Of a DNA stretch of 64,000 bases, positions 105 through 9,634 are shown in pieces. A program made the position numbers and the translations under genes. The stretch comes from Pimelobacter simplex (GTDB lineage Bacteria > Actinomycetota > Actinomycetes > Propionibacteriales > Nocardioidaceae). The notes beneath the pieces are model-generated. The model was not told the origin of the DNA. It searched no databases and saw only the letters and a list, made by a program, of their open reading frames with translations. Every line of letters starts with the position of its first letter. The stretch's first letter is position 1. The DNA lies in assembly GCF_024662235.1 (NCBI RefSeq), contig NZ_CP096276.1:3100001-3164000 (forward strand), given 5' to 3'.

Positions 105-418
105 CCGGCCCCCGGCCGGACGTCCGGCTGGAGTCCGCGCCGATGCAGCCGGTCGGGTGCGGGACGTGCGGCGCCGAGGTCCTCGCCCGCAAGAGCAGCT
201 GGGACCAGACCACCGTGCAGTGGAACGCGGCAGCGCTCGCCCGCTGCCCCGAGCGCCGTACGACGCAGGGCGCTGCCGTCTCCGACCGCCCCAACCGCAA
301 CGCCTTCCCGGGCTGCGCGGCCCTGCGCGCCTCGCTGCGCGCGGCCGCCGTCGCGGGCACCCTCGACGTGCAGTCCGACGAACCCCTCAAGACCAACCCG
401 GAGGCCGCTCATGACTGA
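101..418 (+). CDS. small hypothetical protein with CxxC motif
   Basis: This 105-residue protein has a CGTCGAEVL segment near residue 20 followed by a KSSWDQTTVQWN stretch and further Cys residues (CPERR, FPGCAALR), which suggests a small metal-binding or redox-partner protein. Both ends overlap neighbours: ATGA with the upstream gene and 8 bp with the SDR gene. I do not recognise a named family. Its place between catabolic genes suggests an accessory role, which is inference. Confidence 0.6.
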   Translation: MTGPRPDVRLESAPMQPVGCGTCGAEVLARKSSWDQTTVQWNAAALARCPERRTTQGAAVSDRPNRNAFPGCAALRASLRAAAVAGTLDVQSDEPLKTNPEAAHD

Positions 419-1202
419 TCCCGACCGCTACGGACCGTGGGCCGTCGTCGCCGGCGGCTCCGAGGGCGTGGGCGCCGAGTTCGCCCGGGCGCTGGCCGGC
501 GCCGGCATCAACCTGGTGCTCGTCGCCCGCAAGCCCGGTCCGCTCGAGGAGACCGCCGCATCGGTGCGTGACCTCGGCGTCGAGGTGCGCACCGTCGCCG
601 CCGACCTCACCGATCCCGCCTCCGTCGCGGCGGTCACCGCCGCCACGGCCGACGTCGAGGTGGGCCTGCTGATCTACAACGCGGGCGCCAACACGCACGG
701 CCGCGCGTTCACGCAGGGCACCTTGGCGGGCTTCCAGGGCGTGATCGACCTCAACATCACCGCGCTGCTGGCGCTGACCCACCACTACGCCCTGCCGATG
801 CGGGAGCGGGGGCGCGGCGGGATCCTGCTCGTCGGCTCGCTCGCCGGCTACGTCGGTACGTCGACCGAGGGCGTCTACGGTGGCGTCAAGGCGTTCAGCC
901 GGATCTTCGCCGAGGGCCTGTGGGCCGAGCTGCGCGAGCACGGCGTCGACGTCCTCGAGCTCGTCCTCGGCGTCACCCGCACACCCGCGATGGAGCGGGC
1001 CGGGCTCGACTTCGACCTGCCCGGCCTGCACGTCTCGGAGCCGGCCGACGTCGCCCGCGAGGGCCTCGCCGCGCTCCCCCACGGGCCGGTGCACGTCGTC
1101 AGCGGCAACGAGGACGTCGTGGCGATGCGCTCGACCGACGACCGCGCGCGGCTCGTGGCGGGGACCGAGAAGGTCCTGCGCCGCCTCCTCAGTCCTCAGT
1201 GA
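411..1202 (+). CDS. SDR family NAD(P)-dependent oxidoreductase
   Basis: This 263-residue short-chain dehydrogenase/reductase has the Gly-rich nucleotide-binding loop GGSEGVG (residues 15-21), NAG at 90-92, and the catalytic triad Ser143, Tyr156, Lys160 in YGGVK. The length is normal for a classical SDR. It probably interconverts an alcohol and a ketone in the pathway of the surrounding cluster; the substrate cannot be read from sequence. The 3' end overlaps the convergent IclR gene by 14 bp. Confidence 0.85.
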   Translation: MTDPDRYGPWAVVAGGSEGVGAEFARALAGAGINLVLVARKPGPLEETAASVRDLGVEVRTVAADLTDPASVAAVTAATADVEVGLLIYNAGANTHGRAFTQGTLAGFQGVIDLNITALLALTHHYALPMRERGRGGILLVGSLAGYVGTSTEGVYGGVKAFSRIFAEGLWAELREHGVDVLELVLGVTRTPAMERAGLDFDLPGLHVSEPADVAREGLAALPHGPVHVVSGNEDVVAMRSTDDRARLVAGTEKVLRRLLSPQ

Positions 1203-2016
1203 CGTGCAGCCGCTGGCTGCGCAGGTCGAGGTCGGGGTAGAGGTCCTCGGAGATCCGCCGCGCGGCGTCCAGGACCAGCGGCGCGACCCGCTCGAGCGCC
1301 GTACCGACCGCGGCGACGACGGACAGCGCGCCGATCGGCCCCTGCGGCCCGCGCACCGCGGAGGCCAGGCAGGCGATGTCGGGGAAGCACTCCCCGCGCT
1401 CGAAGGCGAGCCCGCTGCGGGCACGGATCCGGACCAGCTCGCCGTGCAGCACGTCGAGCTCGCCGATCGTGGCCGCGGTCCGGGTGGGCAGGTGGTCGCC
1501 GACGAGCTCGTCAACGCGCTCGGGCTCCAGCCAGGCGAGCATCGCCTTGCCGAGCCCGGTGCAGTGCGCGGGCGCGGAGCCGCCGACGCGCGAGGGGACG
1601 GTCGCCGCGAACGGCCCGCCCAGCTTGTCGAGGTAGCGCACGCGGTCGCCGTCGAGCACCGCCAGGTGGATCACCGCACCGGTGCGCAGCAGCAGGTCGT
1701 GCAGGTACGGCGACGCCGCCGCGCGCAGGTCCGCCTCGCCCGCCGAGCCGCCGCCGAGCACGAGCGAGCGGCGGCCGAGCCCGTAGCCGCTGGTGCCGTG
1801 CTCCAGCCAGTCGAGGCGGACGAGCTGGTCGAGGATCCGGTGCGCCGTGGAGCGCGGGAGCCCGGTCGAGCGGGCGATCTCCTCCAGGCTCAGCCAGGTC
1901 TGGCGGGTGGTGAACCGGTCGAGGATGAGCGTCATCCGCTCGACCATCGACGGCGGCAGCTCGCGTGCCGCGGCCGTGCTGATGACATCCGCCTGCTCCA
2001 TGACCAGCGCCGACAT
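1189..2016 (-). CDS. IclR family transcriptional regulator
   Basis: This 275-residue protein has an N-terminal winged helix-turn-helix (about residues 25-80, recognition region TGLPRSTAHRILDQL) and a C-terminal IclR effector-binding domain. IclR proteins control aromatic and short-chain acid catabolism, often from a divergent position. A clear ribosome binding site, GGGAGGA, lies just upstream of ATG 2016. It is divergent from the LLM oxidoreductase gene, and the spacer holds two copies of a candidate operator, so it probably controls that gene and itself. Confidence 0.88.
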   Translation of the reverse strand: MSALVMEQADVISTAAARELPPSMVERMTLILDRFTTRQTWLSLEEIARSTGLPRSTAHRILDQLVRLDWLEHGTSGYGLGRRSLVLGGGSAGEADLRAAASPYLHDLLLRTGAVIHLAVLDGDRVRYLDKLGGPFAATVPSRVGGSAPAHCTGLGKAMLAWLEPERVDELVGDHLPTRTAATIGELDVLHGELVRIRARSGLAFERGECFPDIACLASAVRGPQGPIGALSVVAAVGTALERVAPLVLDAARRISEDLYPDLDLRSQRLHVTED

Positions 2017-2038
2017 GGGTCCTCCCGGAGATCCAGAA

Positions 2039-2114
2039 CTGAAATGAATTCTAGTGACGACGGTAACACCGGGGGCGAACCCTCCGGAAGAGTATTTCTG
2101 AAATTCGTTCTACT
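2039..2114. promoter_or_regulatory. divergent promoter region with repeated candidate IclR operator
   Basis: Two 17-bp copies, CTGAAATGAATTCTAGT at 2039-2055 and CTGAAATTCGTTCTACT at 2098-2114, agree at 13 of 17 positions and start 59 bp apart. Each contains a GAA...TTC half-palindrome. The region is markedly AT-richer than its surroundings and lies between the divergent IclR and LLM genes. Assignment to IclR is inferred from position. Confidence 0.5.
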
Positions 2115-2171
2115 TCCAGTGATCGGGACGCCCGGCCGCACCGGCGGCGCCCGGCCGCTTGGATGAGGCCC

Positions 2172-3062
2172 ATGCGCATCGGCATCACCAGCCCGGTCGT
2201 GACCGCCCTGCCCGGCGCCTGCTCCCCCTGGGAGCGCACCGCGACGGTCGCCGACCTGGTCGCCGTCGCCACCGCCGCCGACCGGCTCGGCTTCGACCAC
2301 CTCACCTGCTCCGAGCACGTCGCCGTCCCGGTCGGGGTCGCGGAGCAGCGCGGCGGCACCTACTGGGACCCGCTCGCCACGCTGAGCCACCTCGCCGCGC
2401 ACACGACGCGGATGCGGCTCGCCACCCAGGTGCTCGTGCTCGGCTACCACCACCCGCTCGCGATCGCGAAGCGCTACGGCACGCTCGACCTGCTCAGCGG
2501 CGGGCGGCTCGTGCTCGGTCTCGGCGTCGGCTCGCTCGAGGAGGAGTTCGACCTCCTCGGCGCCGCGTACGACGAGCGGGGCGCCGTCGCCGACGACGCG
2601 CTCCCCGCGCTGCGGGCCGCGCTCGGCGGCCCCCGCCCGACGTACGACGGGCCGCGGTTCCCGTTCGGAGGCGTGGTCGTCGAGCCGCACGCCGTCCAGG
2701 CGCGGGTGCCGTTCTGGATCGGCGGCCACACCGCGCGCAGCCTGCGCCGCGCCCGCGAGCACGGCGACGGCTGGATCCCGTTCGGGCTCGGCCACGACCG
2801 GCTGCGCGCGATGCTCGACGGCACCGACCTGCCCGACGGGTTCGAGGTCGTCCTCGGCGCCGGCCGCCCGGTCGACCCGATCGGCGAGCCGGACCGGACC
2901 CGCCGCGCCCTCGATCGCACCGTCGCGGCCGGCGCCACCGTCGTCAACGTGCACGTGGCCGCCACCTCGGCGACCCACTACACCGACCAGCTCTCCGCCC
3001 TGGCCGCCCTGGCCGGGCTCACCCCCACCCCCACCACTCCCACCGCACCGGAGGACGCATGA
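2172..3062 (+). CDS. F420-type LLM class oxidoreductase
   Basis: A luciferase-like monooxygenase-fold protein of 296 residues, resembling the F420-dependent branch: MRIGITSP start, SEHVAVP near residue 47, and the conserved SGGRLVLGLGVGSLEEEF block. F420-type LLM enzymes reduce or oxidise diverse small molecules in actinobacteria. I chose ATG 2172 because GGATGAGG precedes it and family members begin MRIG; an in-frame ATG at 2163 is the alternative. It overlaps the next gene by ATGA. Cofactor choice (F420 or FMN) is inferred. Confidence 0.8.
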   Translation: MRIGITSPVVTALPGACSPWERTATVADLVAVATAADRLGFDHLTCSEHVAVPVGVAEQRGGTYWDPLATLSHLAAHTTRMRLATQVLVLGYHHPLAIAKRYGTLDLLSGGRLVLGLGVGSLEEEFDLLGAAYDERGAVADDALPALRAALGGPRPTYDGPRFPFGGVVVEPHAVQARVPFWIGGHTARSLRRAREHGDGWIPFGLGHDRLRAMLDGTDLPDGFEVVLGAGRPVDPIGEPDRTRRALDRTVAAGATVVNVHVAATSATHYTDQLSALAALAGLTPTPTTPTAPEDA

Positions 3063-3529
3063 GCATCGAGGAACGCCTGCAGCGCCTGGAGGACGTCCAG
3101 GAGATCACCCTCCTCATCGCGTCCTACGGCCCCCTCGTCGACGCCGGCGAGGCCGAGCGGGTCGCCGGGATGTGGACCGAGGACGGCGTCTACGACGTCG
3201 ACGAGATCTACATGGGCGACCAGGCCGCGATCGAGGCGATGGTGCGCGGCGACCGGCACCAGGGGCTGATCCAGAACGGCTGCTGCCACTTCCTCGGCCC
3301 CGCCCACGTCACCGTGGACGGCGACCGCGCGGTCGCCGTGTGCCCGTCGGTGCTGCTGGTGCGCCACGAGGGCCGCAACTTCCCGGCCCGGATCGGCGCC
3401 AACCACTTCGACCTCGTCCGCACGCCGCAGGGCTGGCGGATCGCGCACCGCACGATCCGCCAGCTCGACGGCGACCCCGCGTCCCGGGCGCTGTTCGCGC
3501 GCGCCGGCCAGGTCGACCCCACGGCCTAG
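3059..3529 (+). CDS. SnoaL-like / NTF2-family protein
   Basis: This 156-residue protein has an NTF2-like cone fold pattern: an N-terminal helix (RLEDVQEITLLIASYGPLVDAG), then WTEDGVYDVDE and a C-terminal beta sheet ending in GWRIAHRTI. Many such proteins in catabolic clusters are small hydratases, isomerases or dehydratases, or binding proteins; no specific reaction can be assigned. It is coupled to the LLM gene by ATGA and meets a second NTF2-like gene on the other strand at 3526-3529. Confidence 0.75.
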   Translation: MSIEERLQRLEDVQEITLLIASYGPLVDAGEAERVAGMWTEDGVYDVDEIYMGDQAAIEAMVRGDRHQGLIQNGCCHFLGPAHVTVDGDRAVAVCPSVLLVRHEGRNFPARIGANHFDLVRTPQGWRIAHRTIRQLDGDPASRALFARAGQVDPTA

Positions 3530-4002
3530 AACCGCGAGCGCACCTCGGGTCCGCGCACCTTGACCTGCGCCGGCTCGTCGAGGTTCCAGGTCATCTCGAA
3601 CGTGCGCCGGTAGCCGGTGCGCAGGATCCGCCACCCGTCTGCCGTACGCACGTAGGTGTCGGAGTAGATCGCCCCACCCTCCAGCGCGAACCGGAAGGCG
3701 TCGACGATCACCTTGTCGTGCAGGTACCAGGTGCCGCTCGCCCGGTCCGCGTCCTCCGGGTCGAGATCGATCTCGGGGTGGTGCGCCTGGTGCATCGTCA
3801 GCACGCCCTCCCCCATGTTCGCGCGCATGTAGGCGACCAGCGGGCCGGGCGAGTCGAAGGCCAGGCCGTTGTAGTCGGCCGTCGCGTCCGGCGCGAAGCA
3901 GGCCGCGAAGTCGTCCCACTGCTTGGTGTCGAGGCAGCGCAGGTAGCGGTACTTCAGGCGGGTGATCGCGGCGATGTCGGCGGCGCTGTCGGCGGTGCTC
4001 AT
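3526..4002 (-). CDS. SnoaL-like / NTF2-family protein
   Basis: A second NTF2-like protein (158 residues) with ITRLKYRYLRCLDTKQWDDF and CFAPDATADYNG near the N-terminus and GWRILRTGYRRTFE at the end. I chose ATG 4002 because family members begin just before the ITRLKYRYLR helix. A GTG at 4056 overlapping the maleylacetate reductase stop (GTGA) would add 18 atypical residues. It is the last gene of the hydroxyquinol operon. Reaction unknown. Confidence 0.75.
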   Translation of the reverse strand: MSTADSAADIAAITRLKYRYLRCLDTKQWDDFAACFAPDATADYNGLAFDSPGPLVAYMRANMGEGVLTMHQAHHPEIDLDPEDADRASGTWYLHDKVIVDAFRFALEGGAIYSDTYVRTADGWRILRTGYRRTFEMTWNLDEPAQVKVRGPEVRSRF

Positions 4003-4052
4003 GGCGCCGAACCTAGGAAGGCCCGGCTCCACGGGGCGTCCTCGCGTACCGG

Positions 4053-5105
4053 TCACCGGGAGCGCCAGGCCGCCTCCAGCAACGTCTCCACGTCGGCCCG
4101 CGTGGGCACGCGCGGGTTCCGGTACGGCGCCGCGAGCACCTCGTCCGCGACCCGGGCCAGGTCCGCCCGCTCGACGCCGAGCGCGGCCAGCCCGTCCGGT
4201 ACGCCGAGCCGCTCCCCCAGGTCGGCCAGCGCGGCCGGCACGTCGGCGACACCGAGCGCCCGCCGGAGCGCGGCGTCAGCCTCCGGCGCCATCGCGAGGT
4301 TGTAGCGCGCGACGTGCGGCAGCACGATCGCATGGGTCTCGGCGTGCGGCAGGTCGAGCATCCCGCCGAGCACGTGGCAGAGCTTGTGGTGCAGGCCCAT
4401 CGTGGTGGCGCCGAGACACGCCCCGCACAGCCAGGCCCCTTGCAGGGCACGCGTCCTGGCGTCCAGGTCGGTGGGATCGGCGACGACGAGCGGCAGCGCC
4501 GCGGCCAGGTCGCGCACGCCCTGCTCGGCCATCGCCGTGATCAGCGGCGAGCCGTCCGGGGCGTAGAGCGCCTCGACCGCGTGGGCCAGCGCGTTGAGCC
4601 CGCTCGTCCCGGAGATCGCCGGCGGCAGCGACACCGTCAGCTCCGGGTCGTAGAGGACCGAGCGCGGCAGGACCGCGCGGTCCCGGCCGGTGCGCTTGCG
4701 GCCGTCCTCGGTCAGCCCCCAGATCGGGGTCATCTCCGAGCCGGCGTACGTCGTCGGGACGGCGAGGATCGGCAGCGCGTGCCGCAGCGCGAGGGCCTTG
4801 CCCAGGCCGATCGTCGAGCCGCCGCCGACCGCGACGCAACCGTCCGCGCCGACCTCGCCGACCACCGTGGCCGCGGCCTCGACCACCGGCACCGGCACGT
4901 GCATCCGCGCGCGGTCGAAGACCCCGGCGGCCCGCACCCCCAGCAGGCCGGCGACCCGGTCGGCCAGGTCCCGCTGCTCGGGCGTGCTCAGCACGAGCAC
5001 CCGGCGCAGGCCGAGATGCTCGACCTCCTCGCCGATCCGCGCGAGGGCACCGGCGCCGAGGACCACCCGCATCGGCAGCGCCTCGTAGACGAACCCGCCG
5101 CTCAT
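4053..5105 (-). CDS. maleylacetate reductase
   Basis: This 350-residue protein is an iron-alcohol-dehydrogenase-fold reductase of the maleylacetate reductase type: N-terminal FVYEALPMRVVLGAGA, GGGSTIGLGKALAL nucleotide-binding segment, TYAGSEMTPIWGLTEDGRK, and His residues in HAVEALY and GLHHKLCHVLGG. Maleylacetate reductase turns maleylacetate, the product of hydroxyquinol ring cleavage, into 3-oxoadipate. The gene starts within the stop of the dioxygenase fusion (ATGA), which supports this pathway role directly. Confidence 0.9.
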   Translation of the reverse strand: MSGGFVYEALPMRVVLGAGALARIGEEVEHLGLRRVLVLSTPEQRDLADRVAGLLGVRAAGVFDRARMHVPVPVVEAAATVVGEVGADGCVAVGGGSTIGLGKALALRHALPILAVPTTYAGSEMTPIWGLTEDGRKRTGRDRAVLPRSVLYDPELTVSLPPAISGTSGLNALAHAVEALYAPDGSPLITAMAEQGVRDLAAALPLVVADPTDLDARTRALQGAWLCGACLGATTMGLHHKLCHVLGGMLDLPHAETHAIVLPHVARYNLAMAPEADAALRRALGVADVPAALADLGERLGVPDGLAALGVERADLARVADEVLAAPYRNPRVPTRADVETLLEAAWRSR

Positions 5106-6994
5106 GCGGGCACCAGCCGGATGTCGAAGTGCACGTGCCGGAAAGGCGCCGTGACGCCGTACCGCTGGGCCTCGGCGGGATCGGTGACGACCGCGAAGTC
5201 GCGCACCAGGCTCGGCTTCACCGCGAACACGGCATCGCTGTCGAGATAAGGGCTGTCGGCGACGAACACGTGCGTGGTGACCGGCTCGAAGCCCTCGGCC
5301 TCTGCGATGAAGTGCACGTGCGCCGGCCGGTACGGGTGGCGTTCGCTGGCGCGCAGCAGCGCGCCGACCGGCCCGTCCGTCGGGATCGGGTAGTGCGAGG
5401 GCACCACGGTGCGGAACCAGAACCGCCCGTCCTCGTCAGTGCGGAACATCCCGCGCCCGTTGCCCGGCGGCTGCGTGTCGGGCCGCTGCACGTCGTAGAA
5501 GCCCTCCTCGTCGCACTGCCAGACGTCGACGGCGGCGCCGACCAGCGCCTGTCCGTCGAGACCGGCGACCGTGCCGGTCACCACGCACGGCCGGTCGAGC
5601 CCGAGCTCGCTGATCGAGTCGCCGAGCGCGCGCTGCGGGGACGCGGTCATGTGGAACGGTCCGAGCACCGTGCTCTCGGTGCCGTGGTCGCCGCCGTTGA
5701 GCGTCTCGACGAGCATCGAGACCCCCAGCACGTCGGAGAGCAGGACGAACTCCTGCCGGGTGTCGTCGCACGTCTGCCCGACCGCGGTGAGGAAGCCGAT
5801 CGCCTGCTCCCACTCGGCCAGCGTCGGGCGCAGCTCCGCCACGAGCGCGTGCACGTGGCGGGTGACCGCGTCCAGCACGTCGCGCTGCCGCGGGTCCGGC
5901 GTCCGGGCGAAGCTCGCGCGCACCTCGTCGAGCAGCGTCGTGCGGGCGGGTGCGAGGTGCTCGCCGAACCAGTCGGCGACGTACGCCGTGCGCTCCTCGC
6001 CGTGGTTGTAGATCGTGTGGTCACCGTCGTCCCACGCACGCAGCGTGGCGACGCCGACAGCCGCGTCCAGGAAGGGCTGCTGCTCCTCGCGGCTGACGAT
6101 CGGGTCCTGGCCGCCGTGCACGACGAGGACCGCACCGGCGATCCGGTCCTCGGGCTGCAGCGCGATCCGGTCGAAGTTGGCCTGCACGCGCGTGGGGTCG
6201 GTGGTGCCCAGCATCGCGCCGGCCTGCTCGTCGAACGTCCGGAAGCCCAGCAGGCGCGGGCGTGCGGGCGCGCCGTTGACGCAGACCGCACTGATCCGCG
6301 GGTCGCTCGCGGCTGTCGTACCGGCGAAGAGGCCGCCCATGCTGTTGCCCCAGATGCCGACGCTGCCGCCGAGCGAAGGGTCGGCGAGGACGTGGTCGAC
6401 GAACACCGAGTACGCCGCGCGGACGTCCACGTCGAGCAGGACTCCCCCGCTCATCCGGGTCTCCCCCTGCCCCGGTCCCTCGACGAGGAAGGCCGCGATC
6501 CCGCGCTCCAGCAGGGCATCCGCCGCCCGCAGGTAGGTCGCGCCCCAGCCGCTCTGGCCGCCGAGCACGATCACGGTCCCGCGCACCCGACCCGGCGGGC
6601 GCAGCAGCCAGCCGTGCAGCCGGCCCGCGCCGAACGGCAGCGTCACCTGCTCCCAGGCCGGCTCGGCGAGCGCACCGGCGCGGCCCACGGTCGCGGTGAA
6701 GCGGGCGTAGAGCGCCGCCCGCTCGGGGCTGTCGTCGTTCCAGGCCATCTGGGCGAACAGCAGGGCCGCGGCCGACCACCGGAACCCGGCCCGGGCGGTG
6801 GCGACGTGTCCGTCGGCGAGCGCCCGCTCGGCGGCGGCCGCGCGGTCGTCGGCGACAGCGACGAGCGCCTCGTCCCACGGCGTGCCCGCGTCGGTCGCGG
6901 CCCGCAGCCGTCGTACGTCGGCGGGGGCGAGGCCGCCGTCGGTCATCCGCTCCGGCGACATCGACCGCCAGAGCACGTCGGCCGGGGGCGTCAC
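5102..6994 (-). CDS. alpha/beta hydrolase fused to hydroxyquinol 1,2-dioxygenase
   Basis: A continuous 630-residue reading frame carries two enzymes. Residues 1 to about 348 form an alpha/beta hydrolase with a helical N-terminal part, nucleophile Ser218 in GNSMGG, Asp297 and His326; it resembles 2,6-dihydroxypseudooxynicotine C-C hydrolase (GPGQGE, GDH near the end). Residues about 357-630 form an intradiol dioxygenase of the hydroxyquinol type with the full non-haem Fe(III) ligand set Tyr500, Tyr535, His559, His561 and the RPAHVHF motif. The GTG start at 6994 overlaps the monooxygenase stop (GTGA). No stop, ATG start or ribosome binding site is visible at the junction (about 5925-5960). Proposed role: release hydroxyquinol from an acylated precursor and cleave it to maleylacetate. 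Confidence 0.85.
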   Translation of the reverse strand: MTPPADVLWRSMSPERMTDGGLAPADVRRLRAATDAGTPWDEALVAVADDRAAAAERALADGHVATARAGFRWSAAALLFAQMAWNDDSPERAALYARFTATVGRAGALAEPAWEQVTLPFGAGRLHGWLLRPPGRVRGTVIVLGGQSGWGATYLRAADALLERGIAAFLVEGPGQGETRMSGGVLLDVDVRAAYSVFVDHVLADPSLGGSVGIWGNSMGGLFAGTTAASDPRISAVCVNGAPARPRLLGFRTFDEQAGAMLGTTDPTRVQANFDRIALQPEDRIAGAVLVVHGGQDPIVSREEQQPFLDAAVGVATLRAWDDGDHTIYNHGEERTAYVADWFGEHLAPARTTLLDEVRASFARTPDPRQRDVLDAVTRHVHALVAELRPTLAEWEQAIGFLTAVGQTCDDTRQEFVLLSDVLGVSMLVETLNGGDHGTESTVLGPFHMTASPQRALGDSISELGLDRPCVVTGTVAGLDGQALVGAAVDVWQCDEEGFYDVQRPDTQPPGNGRGMFRTDEDGRFWFRTVVPSHYPIPTDGPVGALLRASERHPYRPAHVHFIAEAEGFEPVTTHVFVADSPYLDSDAVFAVKPSLVRDFAVVTDPAEAQRYGVTAPFRHVHFDIRLVPA

Positions 6995-8544
6995 GCGACG
7001 GTCCAGTCGAGCCGCTCGCGCAGCTGCGCGAGCGCGGCCGGCAGGTCGGCGAGCGCGCCGGCCCAGAACAGGTGGTGGTCGGGTCGGCCGACGAACGCCT
7101 CGACCCCGTGGGCGGCGAACCAGTCCGCGTAGGTCCCGGCGACATCGGTGACCGTGTCGAGCGACGCCGTCACCACGCCGAGCTTGTCGAGGAACGCGAG
7201 GTCGGCCGCGCCGAGGTCCGCGGCGCTCGCCGAGACCAGGCTGAAGCCGCGCCCCACGACGTCGTCGAGGAGCCCCTCGGCGTCGCCCACGCGGACCACG
7301 CCGTGCGGCGTGAGCGTGCCCGCCAGCGGGCTCACCGCGCCGTCGGCCTCGTGGTGGACGACCCCGGCGACCAGCGTCGGGAACGGCGGCGGGGGCGGGA
7401 CGTTGCCGGTCCGGAACGCCTCGTCGCGGGCGGCCGCCTCGGCCGGGTCGTGGGTGTTGGCGACCTTGCCGAGCGCCGTGGAGATCTCGGTGATCGCGGT
7501 CGCGTGCGGCCGCCGCTCGGCCTCGTAGGTGTCGAGCAGCGCGTCCCCGGCGAGGCCACGCAGCACCAGGTCGAGCTTCCAGCCCAGGGTGATCCCGTCG
7601 CGCATGCCCGAGCACGCCCCCTGCCCCATGTACGGCGGCGTGGTGTGCGCCGCGTCGCCCGCGAGCAGCACCCGTCCCTCGCGCCAGCGCTCGGCGATCC
7701 GGCCCTGGAAGGTGTAGACGACCTGGCGCAGGATCCGCACGTCCTCCGGCCCGAGCCCGTGGGTCTCGGCCAGCCAGCGCCACGCGTAGTCCGGGTCCTC
7801 GTAGGCCGTCTGGTCCTCACCCGGCAGCACCGCCACCTCGAAGCGCTGGCGGCTGCGCCCGATCGGCATGAACATGTGCCCGCGCGCGGGATCGCAGAAC
7901 TGCGTGGTCCTGCGGAACCTCTCGGGCAGCTCGCGCAGCTGCTCGGTGTCGACGTTGAGCCAGCGGTCGTCGACGCCGTTGTCGCTGCGCTCGATGCCCA
8001 GCGTGGCGCGCACGAAGCTGTTGGCGCCGTCCGCGCCCACCACGTACGACGCGGTGATCGTGCGCTCCTCGTCGGCGTGCGACCACTGGCCGGTGCGCGA
8101 CTGGCTCCACGGCCGGGCCGTCACCTCGACGCCGTCCGCGTGGGGCCGGAGGTTGACCACGGACCACCCCTGGTTGACCTCGACTCCGGCGGCGCGGGCC
8201 GCCGCGTCCACGGCGTCCTCGATGTCGGGCTGGTACATCGAGATGTGGGCCGGGTGACCCGCCGACGTCCCGCGCCAGTCGAGCTCGACCAGCAGCTCGC
8301 CCGCAGCGCTGAAGTAGCGGTAGTAGTCCAGCGGCAGGGCGTCGCGCAGGGCGTGGTCCAGGTCGCCGACCGAGGCGATGACGCGGGCGGTCTCGCCGTC
8401 GATGTGGGTCAGCCGCGGCAGGCCGTAGAGGCCCGGCCAGCGCTCGAAGACCACGACCTTGTGGCCGGCCCGGCCCAGGGCCGAGGCGAGGACCAGTCCG
8501 GCGGGGCCGTATCCGACGATCGCGACGTCGTACTCGTTGCTCAT
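6991..8544 (-). CDS. FAD-dependent aromatic monooxygenase (MhpA-like)
   Basis: This 517-residue flavoprotein hydroxylase has GYGPAG near residue 11 (FAD Rossmann loop), VVGADGANSFVR (DG motif) and VLLAGDAAHTTPPYMGQGACSGMRD (GD motif), followed by a thioredoxin-like C-terminal domain. This is the architecture of 3-(3-hydroxyphenyl)propionate and resorcinol-type hydroxylases (FAD_binding_3). It opens the operon that continues with the hydrolase-dioxygenase fusion and maleylacetate reductase, so it probably hydroxylates a phenolic substrate upstream of hydroxyquinol. The exact substrate is unknown. Confidence 0.88.
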   Translation of the reverse strand: MSNEYDVAIVGYGPAGLVLASALGRAGHKVVVFERWPGLYGLPRLTHIDGETARVIASVGDLDHALRDALPLDYYRYFSAAGELLVELDWRGTSAGHPAHISMYQPDIEDAVDAAARAAGVEVNQGWSVVNLRPHADGVEVTARPWSQSRTGQWSHADEERTITASYVVGADGANSFVRATLGIERSDNGVDDRWLNVDTEQLRELPERFRRTTQFCDPARGHMFMPIGRSRQRFEVAVLPGEDQTAYEDPDYAWRWLAETHGLGPEDVRILRQVVYTFQGRIAERWREGRVLLAGDAAHTTPPYMGQGACSGMRDGITLGWKLDLVLRGLAGDALLDTYEAERRPHATAITEISTALGKVANTHDPAEAAARDEAFRTGNVPPPPPFPTLVAGVVHHEADGAVSPLAGTLTPHGVVRVGDAEGLLDDVVGRGFSLVSASAADLGAADLAFLDKLGVVTASLDTVTDVAGTYADWFAAHGVEAFVGRPDHHLFWAGALADLPAALAQLRERLDWTVA

Positions 8545-8629: not shown

Positions 8630-9634
8630 TCACTCCGGGGCGGCGCGCAGGGTCGCCGAGGGGCTCTCGCCGTAGCGCTCGCGATAGGCACCGGCGAACC
8701 GCGGGACGTGGGAGAAGCCCCAGCGCAGGGCGACGTCAGCGACGGTCAGCCCGCTGCCGGGAGCGGCCGCGCGCAGGTCGGCGTGGACCCGCGCGAGCCG
8801 GACCTGCTGGAGGTACTGGCGCGGCGCGACGCCCACGTGGTCGCGGAAGTGGCGCTGGAGCGAGCGCGGGCTCACGCCGGCCTCGGCGGCGAGCCGCTCG
8901 ACCGTGAGCTCCTCGTCGGGCCGGGCCTCGATCAGGTCGATCGCCCGCTTGACCGGCGCCGGCCGGTGGGCGCCGTGGCGCCGCTCGGCGAGCTGGTCGC
9001 TGTAGTTGTGCGGCTGGGCCAGCAGCAGCCCGGTCATCAAGAAGCCGGACCACGGGTTGGTGGCGTCGACGGCGCCGCCGACTCCCCCGAGCCCGAGCGG
9101 CTCGTCGAGGTCCTCGACCAGCAGCCGTACGGCGCGCGCCCACGAGGCCGCCGCCGGGCCGCGCAGGTCCATCGCCATCCGGAACCGGATCGGCGCGACC
9201 ACGGTGCGCCCCAGCAGCTCTTCGAGGTGGCGCTCCAGCGCATAGCGCTCGAAGCGCACGTGGAGCTGGCGGTAGTCGTCGCTCAGCCGCATCTGCGCCT
9301 GCATCCGCGGCGAGATGATCCCGGCGGTGTGCGGGTCGACGACCACCTCGTCGTCCCCGCAGGTGATCAGGTTGCGCCCGCCCCAGGACAGGTTGATGTC
9401 GTAGTAGTCGACCTGCTCGGTCAGCGTCGCGCCGAGCGCGGCACCGCGGTGCTCGCCGTAGACCAGGGAGAGCGCCCCCAGCGGCGCGACGGCGACCGAG
9501 ACCCGCTCGACCCGGCCGGAGCGCTCCAGCGGGACCAGGCGGTGGGGCGTCAGCGCCCGCGACACCGAGACCCGGAACTCGTCGAGGTCGTCGGCGTCGA
9601 CCACCGAGAACCGCTCGAGCACCGGCCTGGTCAT
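8630..9634 (-). CDS. AraC family transcriptional regulator
   Basis: This 334-residue protein has an AraC-binding-like N-terminal sensor region (about 1-210) and a C-terminal double helix-turn-helix (about 225-330) with LTVERLAAEAGVSPRSLQRHF and the second helix region VADVALRWGFSHVPRFAGAYRERYG. Regulators of this type often activate aromatic catabolic operons. The gene lies 85 bp upstream of the monooxygenase operon on the same strand, so it probably activates that operon in response to its substrate. Confidence 0.88.
   Translation of the reverse strand: MTRPVLERFSVVDADDLDEFRVSVSRALTPHRLVPLERSGRVERVSVAVAPLGALSLVYGEHRGAALGATLTEQVDYYDINLSWGGRNLITCGDDEVVVDPHTAGIISPRMQAQMRLSDDYRQLHVRFERYALERHLEELLGRTVVAPIRFRMAMDLRGPAAASWARAVRLLVEDLDEPLGLGGVGGAVDATNPWSGFLMTGLLLAQPHNYSDQLAERRHGAHRPAPVKRAIDLIEARPDEELTVERLAAEAGVSPRSLQRHFRDHVGVAPRQYLQQVRLARVHADLRAAAPGSGLTVADVALRWGFSHVPRFAGAYRERYGESPSATLRAAPE

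Follow-up and report, generated by a model that had tools for sequence, protein, structure and literature searches.

The closest solved relatives of the protein considered here belong to two separate enzyme groups. One is represented by 2,6-dihydroxypseudooxynicotine hydrolase (DHPONH, 2jbw), which acts ahead of the ring hydroxylase in its pathway of nicotine breakdown, and by Ayg1p/Wdyg1p and AntI (8qd1, 8qd7, and 6hxa), which are biosynthetic and trim polyketides. The other comprises hydroxyquinol 1,2-dioxygenases RjTsdC (8r2x), PnpC (3n9t), and the enzyme of Nocardioides simplex 3E (1tmx), whose solved chains of 290–302 residues contain no hydrolase. Here, we analyzed a 64,000-nucleotide stretch of the Pimelobacter simplex genome (contig NZ_CP096276.1, positions 3,100,001–3,164,000; hereafter, the window) that carries one gene, at 5102..6994 on the minus strand, in which an N-terminal hydrolase domain (HYD) is fused to a putative C-terminal hydroxyquinol 1,2-dioxygenase domain (HQD).

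The gene comprises 630 codons plus TGA in a single stop-free frame. Its GTG start (6994) overlaps the TGA of an upstream flavin monooxygenase (FMO) gene, and its own TGA (5102) is overlapped by the ATG of a downstream reductase gene. The original prediction, made from this sequence, had given the span and length correctly and left the strand unstated; a plus-strand reading of 5102..6994 is not the gene, and the coding strand is minus. Three Pfam domains were found above their curated cut-offs, namely Hydrolase_4 (residues 136–247), Dioxygenase_N (367–433), and Dioxygenase_C (469–627).

Matches at E ≤ 1e-70 were found in 21 of 215 genomes of the genus, with the fusion in five, the two parts as separate genes in one, and the dioxygenase part only in 15. 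Few candidates were scored per genome (up to 13, 5, or 3), and the count of five may be low. In each of the five genomes (G000, G546, G594, G647, and G648), one frame spans at least residues 2–628 with no inner stops. The frame at 5925–5960, over which doubt had been raised, therefore recurs in four further genomes of the genus, including a pair (L036 and L037) with nearly the same sequence; L005 repeats L036 and L006 repeats L039, and each was counted once. The original prediction had also proposed a search for both domains in one chain. In a protein-database search (7998 candidates sharing most words scored; best 120 of 211 matches listed), at least six full-length fused clusters appeared among the matches listed, including proteins from Pimelobacter and Nocardioides. 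With hydrolase P0009 as query and strict cut-offs, the window's own genome was the one match among 149 genomes of the family, and two of 396 phylum genomes gave matches.

Relatives of the fusion are not always encoded as two genes, a pattern that the original prediction had named as a possible objection; the single split case, G585, has HYD and HQD as adjoining genes 2 bp apart, the HYD stop being followed by the ATG of HQD. This arrangement falls at the junction, which in the window lies at 5915..5968 on the minus strand (residues 343–360) and in G585 is 32 nt longer. The distance from an Ala-Asp-Trp motif to an Ala-Ser-Phe motif is 92 nt in G585 versus 60 nt in the fused genes, a net 32 nt less that puts both parts in one reading frame. 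A separate start near the junction had been another suspicion, but such an internal start is not fully conserved: across residues 335–400, no ATG, GTG, or TTG codon is common to all five fused genes, with GTG codons at 373 and at 385 in four of the five each, and at 358 in two. Ratios of nonsynonymous to synonymous substitution (dN/dS) among the fused genes were 0.165–0.242 for HYD, 0.135–0.430 for the 32 codons of the junction, and 0.150–0.249 for HQD. These ranges cover nine of ten pairs; L036/L037 was excluded, having no value for HYD and the junction and an HQD value of 3.07 from very few differences. The junction is under purifying selection. Since the fusion recurs in five of 215 genomes and its junction is so constrained, it is real and not a sequencing error. 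A single fusion event is likely, though not proven, as the FMO tree places G585 outside four fused genomes (support 96), while its position relative to them in the HYD tree is unresolved. The presence of split and fused forms in close species provides a clean natural experiment on channelling.

HYD (5948..6994, minus strand; residues 1–349) has a helical lid and an α/β-hydrolase core, and the structure model reproduced this fold over the full length of the domain, with 30 of 35 HYD blocks at a predicted local confidence (pLDDT) of ≥90. As first proposed, the hydrolase has a complete catalytic triad, and Ser218 (codon 6341..6343, minus strand), Asp297 (6104..6106, minus), and His326 (6017..6019, minus) were invariant across 51 aligned rows. 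The resemblance to DHPONH was also upheld: residues 39–348 match 2jbw at 1.5e-13 in a search of solved structures, and 2jbw is the nearest fold by a clear margin. Identity to DHPONH is nevertheless 23%, and that enzyme differs in acting on a pyridine, whereas the ring substrate of HYD is probably a benzene, and in having no fused intradiol dioxygenase. Identity to Ayg1p/Wdyg1p and AntI is 17–19%. HYD has a serine in place of the acidic oxyanion-loop residue of DHPONH and of Afyg1p-type hydrolases, and is accordingly classed not as either enzyme but as a relative that may work like them.

HQD (5105..5914, minus strand; residues 361–630, with a beginning at about 352–361) contains Dioxygenase_N and Dioxygenase_C. 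All four iron ligands expected by homology in a complete intradiol dioxygenase, as had been claimed, are present on the minus strand: Tyr500 (codon 5495..5497), Tyr535 (5390..5392), His559 (5318..5320), and His561 (5312..5314). These correspond to alignment columns Y151, Y186, H210, and H212, numbered from residue 350. Across 18 aligned HQD rows, Tyr500, Tyr535, and His561 were invariant and His559 nearly so, the sole exception being P0118, which is apparently out of register at that point. The predicted hydroxyquinol specificity is consistent with matches to solved structures, in which 8r2x (2e-74), 3n9t (2e-71), and 1tmx (8e-66) all stood ahead of the best catechol enzyme (6e-34), and three catechol/chlorocatechol equivalog models gave 129–142 bits on HQD against cut-offs of 359–404. 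RjTsdC, PnpC, and the Nocardioides simplex 3E enzyme share both intradiol domains and the four ligands with HQD, which differs from them in being preceded by a 350-residue hydrolase.

Within a tightly packed operon ordered AraC regulator, FMO, HYD-HQD, maleylacetate reductase (MAR), and SnoaL, the fusion comes second among the enzyme genes. FMO (6991..8544, minus strand) encodes 517 residues with an FAD_binding_3 domain, and its stop overlaps the fusion start. It passes the subfamily model NF004829, which covers hydroxylases of side-chain-bearing phenols (520 bits against a cut-off of 390), and fails the MhpA equivalog models NF004831, NF004828, NF004827, and NF004830 (206–304 bits against cut-offs of 546–1135). 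Among solved structures, the phenol 2-monooxygenase-type enzyme 8r2u scored 95.7 bits and the best polyketide oxygenase 108.4 bits. In all five plasmid regions read, FMO is annotated as "bifunctional 3-(3-hydroxy-phenyl)propionate/3-hydroxycinnamic acid hydroxylase", and, if the pathway proposed below is right, correcting this name on a protein that fails those equivalog models would be a gain for annotation. The fusion itself, where annotated by its sources, is called "dioxygenase" or "catechol 1,2-dioxygenase/hydroxyquinol 1,2-dioxygenase". Downstream lies an iron-type alcohol dehydrogenase gene (4053..5105, minus strand), which, by its position beside the predicted hydroxyquinol dioxygenase and its 53% identity to a gene annotated as MAR in L032, is a putative MAR.

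We considered how these enzymes could act together, and on balance we favor, as somewhat probable, the order FMO, HYD (deacylation), HQD, and MAR, giving 3-oxoadipate; all reactions, their order, and the substrate are inferred. FMO would hydroxylate an acylated dihydroxybenzene of the acyl-resorcinol type to an acyl-trihydroxybenzene. Ser218 of HYD would then attack the aryl ketone, a keto-enol shift of the neighboring ring hydroxyl would aid the break of the ring–acyl C–C bond, and a carboxylic acid and hydroxyquinol would be released. The mechanism proposed for Afyg1p requires a hydroxyl beside the acyl-bearing carbon. The HQD domain would convert hydroxyquinol to maleylacetate, which MAR would reduce to 3-oxoadipate. 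The fusion would thus be a catabolic enzyme with two functions in successive steps, one chain holding the easily oxidized hydroxyquinol near its dioxygenase. As an interpretation, the original prediction was sound in part. Its hydrolase type, dioxygenase type, and lower route were supported, the last by the adjoining MAR, by a BKACE gene in L032, and by CoA-transferase and thiolase genes near L117. Its acylated trihydroxybenzene substrate held to the extent that the fold, by analogy, points to HYD acting on an acylated polyhydroxybenzene. The FMO step was added upstream, and the route probably starts one step earlier than first read, with hydroxylation of an acyl-resorcinol-type compound, since FMO is the more constant neighbor of HYD.

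This constancy was apparent when 31 HYD loci were mapped for FMO, HYD, HQD, and MAR (the window, L031–L040, L059–L066, L069, L070, and L111–L120). All of them, 31 of 31, carry an FMO homologue upstream of HYD and in the same orientation, with a thioesterase gene between the two in L034; nine loci (L059–L066 and L069) were found through an FMO-HYD query, so that 22 of 22 is the fairer count. That query gave 10 matches, of which nine surroundings were fetched, and two foreign matches, both fetched; L067 and L068, also from it, have FMO with no HYD in the stretch. A separate genome search gave 22 HYD matches in 20 of 381 genomes, and the surroundings of 10 of these matches were mapped. HYD also occurred in eight plasmid records, five as the regions read and three (H1/H10, H6/H32, and H7/H47) by match coordinates; these three have an FMO match upstream of HYD, at a distance of about 1 kb in H6/H32. 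Of the 31 loci, 17 hold both HQD and MAR in the cassette (the window, L032, L036–L040, L059, L063, L064, L111–L113, and L115–L118), with HQD read in two frames in L063 and MAR at the other end of the cassette in L032. A Pseudosulfitobacter plasmid carries MAR, FMO, HYD, HQD, and BKACE consecutively. L116 has a nearby CoA-transferase gene, and a hotdog thioesterase gene adjoins the cassette in L115–L117. Beyond the cassette genes, no neighbor common to the mapped loci points to a substrate, and neither do the SDR and M1-type peptidase genes, the two examined behind MAR in L037. In loci of the genus Streptomyces, FMO and HYD are retained and HQD and/or MAR are present only as pieces (L060 10541–11069, L061 10535–10891, and L069 11596–11916), as if the lower-pathway genes were being lost. 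A Rhodococcus NBC_00297 plasmid (L033 10053–13502) instead has amidohydrolase, CoA-transferase, and citryl-CoA lyase genes behind FMO-HYD, which suggests that this pair feeds another downstream route there.

Fusions on the other side of HYD were also found. A census of proteins of 487–1549 residues with HYD (E ≤ 1e-20; 7995 candidates sharing most words scored) gave 15 clusters, comprising seven FMO-HYD, six HYD-HQD, and two HYD-P450 (Pfam order checked for P0124, P0126, and P0026). The Streptomyces and Amycolatopsis FMO-HYD fusions (P0026, P0044, P0046, and P0126) combine the same FMO and HYD families as the window, with FMO identities to the window's of 75% for P0026, 74% for P0044, and 49% for P0126, whose HYD is 42% identical. 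They differ in that HYD follows the FMO C-terminus, whereas in the window it precedes the HQD N-terminus. A protein fused to a hydroxylase on one side and to a ring-opening enzyme on the other fits a middle step. In L059, an FMO-HYD fusion is followed by HQD and MAR. The Amycolatopsis-type and Streptomyces-type fusions fall in different clades of the HYD tree (95 of 99 HYD rows, with P0126 outside that tree), and so the FMO-HYD fusion probably arose at least twice. Only one FMO-HQD protein, P0079, was found among the best 120 of 211 matches, and its FMO is of a different kind (32% identity over 92 residues). The FMO and HYD trees agree in grouping L115 and L059 with Nocardioides, whereas the L115 HQD falls in a clade (support 100) with those of L111–L113, L117, and L118 and the dioxygenases of L018, L021, L025, and L110, four loci with no HYD within the stretch fetched. 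The trees thus show HQD exchanged between lineages and the FMO–HYD pair kept intact. A swappable HQD probably acts on ordinary hydroxyquinol, which favors deacylation before ring opening.

Several observations weigh against the proposed pathway. The acidic oxyanion-loop residue, which is Glu in the GGLES loop of DHPONH, Asp188 in Afyg1p, and the acid of the GLDG/GLDS loop in Ayg1p/Wdyg1p and AntI, is absent from HYD; Ser148 aligns with it and is Ser in all 51 rows, so catalytic details must differ from those of DHPONH and Afyg1p. In 14 of the 31 HYD loci, the cassette does not include HQD and MAR in complete form: two have HQD at a distance of a few kb (L035 and L070), three retain HQD/MAR fragments (L060, L061, and L069), and neither was seen in the stretch in nine (L031, L033, L034, L062, L065, L066, L114, which ends at a contig end, L119, and L120). 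The structure model had 12 of 28 ten-residue HQD blocks at a mean pLDDT of <60 and no usable two-domain arrangement; the HQD part is poorly predicted because the alignment behind it was thin. The absence of HQD relatives from the VIA table is uninformative. The HQD of L110, a locus of the presumed Rhodococcus S2-17 genome, whose benzophenone-3 pathway reportedly opens the acylated ring first, shares one clade with those of L111–L113, L115, L117, and L118, which weakens the argument from exchange. Moreover, the adjacency of FMO and HYD and their fusions would fit equally well if HYD acted first, converting an acyl-resorcinol to resorcinol from which FMO would make hydroxyquinol for HQD to open. 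DHPONH, the closest solved relative, precedes a ring hydroxylase, and by analogy the hydroxyl that the Afyg1p mechanism requires would already be present in an acyl-resorcinol. We nonetheless consider this order unlikely, because the HYD-HQD fusion would then join non-consecutive steps, FMO passes the model for side-chain-bearing phenol hydroxylases and is no closer to 8r2u than to polyketide oxygenases, and P0079 has the other kind of FMO.

Another alternative keeps HQD and HYD consecutive. HQD would open the acyl-trihydroxybenzene made by FMO, and HYD would hydrolyze the resulting acyl-maleylacetate, a 1,3-diketone, by retro-Claisen cleavage, or its reduced form. The hydrolysis would be chemically easy, and in the benzophenone-3 pathway of Rhodococcus S2-17, attributed to Baek et al. 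in 2022, the acylated ring is reportedly opened first and hydrolyzed last. This order is similarly improbable in our assessment: HYD stands with FMO and no HQD nearby in Herbiconiux (L034) and Rhodococcus (L033), the rest of those genomes not having been searched for HQD; HQD lineages have been exchanged with FMO-HYD kept together; and the presumed S2-17 genome (G1402) has no HYD homologue beside its L110 HQD, making its hydrolase at most an analogue. Least probable, and in our view quite doubtful, is that HYD works upstream as a common esterase or thioesterase-like hydrolase for an O-acyl or CoA-linked substrate, with the fusion merely coordinating expression and no catalytic hand-over.

Returning to deacylation as the middle step, we tentatively suggest, as a possibility, that FMO and the DHPONH-like HYD form an undescribed, widespread module of actinobacteria and alphaproteobacterial plasmids that makes acylated resorcinols, aryl ketones from plants or microbes, available to catabolism and is plugged into the ring-cleavage set of its host. 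In Nocardioides and Pimelobacter, the hydrolase would have been fused to the dioxygenase, with unstable hydroxyquinol both produced and consumed on one chain. If the proposed pathway is right, this would be a soil-bacterial route that strips polyhydroxybenzenes (plant and microbial aryl ketones, perhaps also those of sunscreens) of their acyl groups and consumes the ring via 3-oxoadipate, and the natural fusion would suit a reactive intermediate. No description of the HYD-HQD fusion or the FMO-HYD module was found in searches of the open-licence literature, a scope outside which most subscription journals lie. Piperine catabolism (PMC12753220) proved unrelated.

The benzophenone-3 pathway is said to use a flavin enzyme, HQD, maleylacetate reductase, and an α/β-hydrolase, the same enzyme classes as the window operon. 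L110, which may be the published cluster, comes from a genome that we take to be Rhodococcus oxybenzonivorans S2-17, and the 19 kb around its HQD differ from the window in holding no related HYD and no match to the window FMO. In G1402, the only match to the HYD region at E ≤ 0.001 had 30% identity over residues 115–243 and lay away from the L110 HQD. We rejected S2-17 as the source of a characterized HYD orthologue, because the surroundings of its HQD, pRB11 (at E ≤ 0.001), and pRB98 (two candidates scored) all yielded none. A search for HQD on S2-17 plasmids pRB98 and pRB29 was empty. On pRB11, an AraC gene stands beside ferredoxin, P450, and reductase genes (L077 7718–11816), perhaps the published benzophenone-3 demethylase.

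Other candidate fusions were set aside or noted. A 1520-residue frame in Nocardioides albidus (L006 4398–8960) that resembled a triple fusion is an artefact, as masked bases in the FMO gene shift the frame. P0020 (429 residues) was rejected as a second working HYD-HQD fusion; its HYD piece starts near the core, stops after an Asn-Gly-Ala-Pro stretch, and is without the lid, Asp, and His, as a deletion or an incomplete gene would be. In P0124 and P0125 (774 residues), HYD is fused N-terminally to a cytochrome P450. This is a third type of partner, possibly an O-demethylating or hydroxylating one. HQD domains also share a chain with sigma-factor, FolD-type, acetyltransferase, or iron-alcohol-dehydrogenase (MAR-like) domains in 12 listed proteins (P0057, P0061, P0062, P0066, P0070, P0073, P0078, P0092, P0100, P0102, P0107, and P0122), some of which may be true fusions and others gene-calling errors.

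The remaining genes of the operon are an AraC-family regulator just upstream of FMO (8630..9634, minus strand), a homologue of which adjoins the cassette in other Nocardioides loci too, and a final SnoaL_4 gene, assigned by Pfam (3526..4056, minus), which overlaps the reductase end and had no match in L036–L040. Beside the operon, at 411–3529, are an SDR gene and three possible upstream genes, encoding an IclR regulator (1189–2016, minus; best match to the PcaR/PcaU family, below cut-off), an LLM-class F420-type oxidoreductase (2163–3062, plus), and a second SnoaL_4 protein (3059–3529, plus). These four were unmatched in the other Nocardioides stretches fetched, and in G594 (L038 and L071) their homologues lie about 20 kb or less from the cassette.

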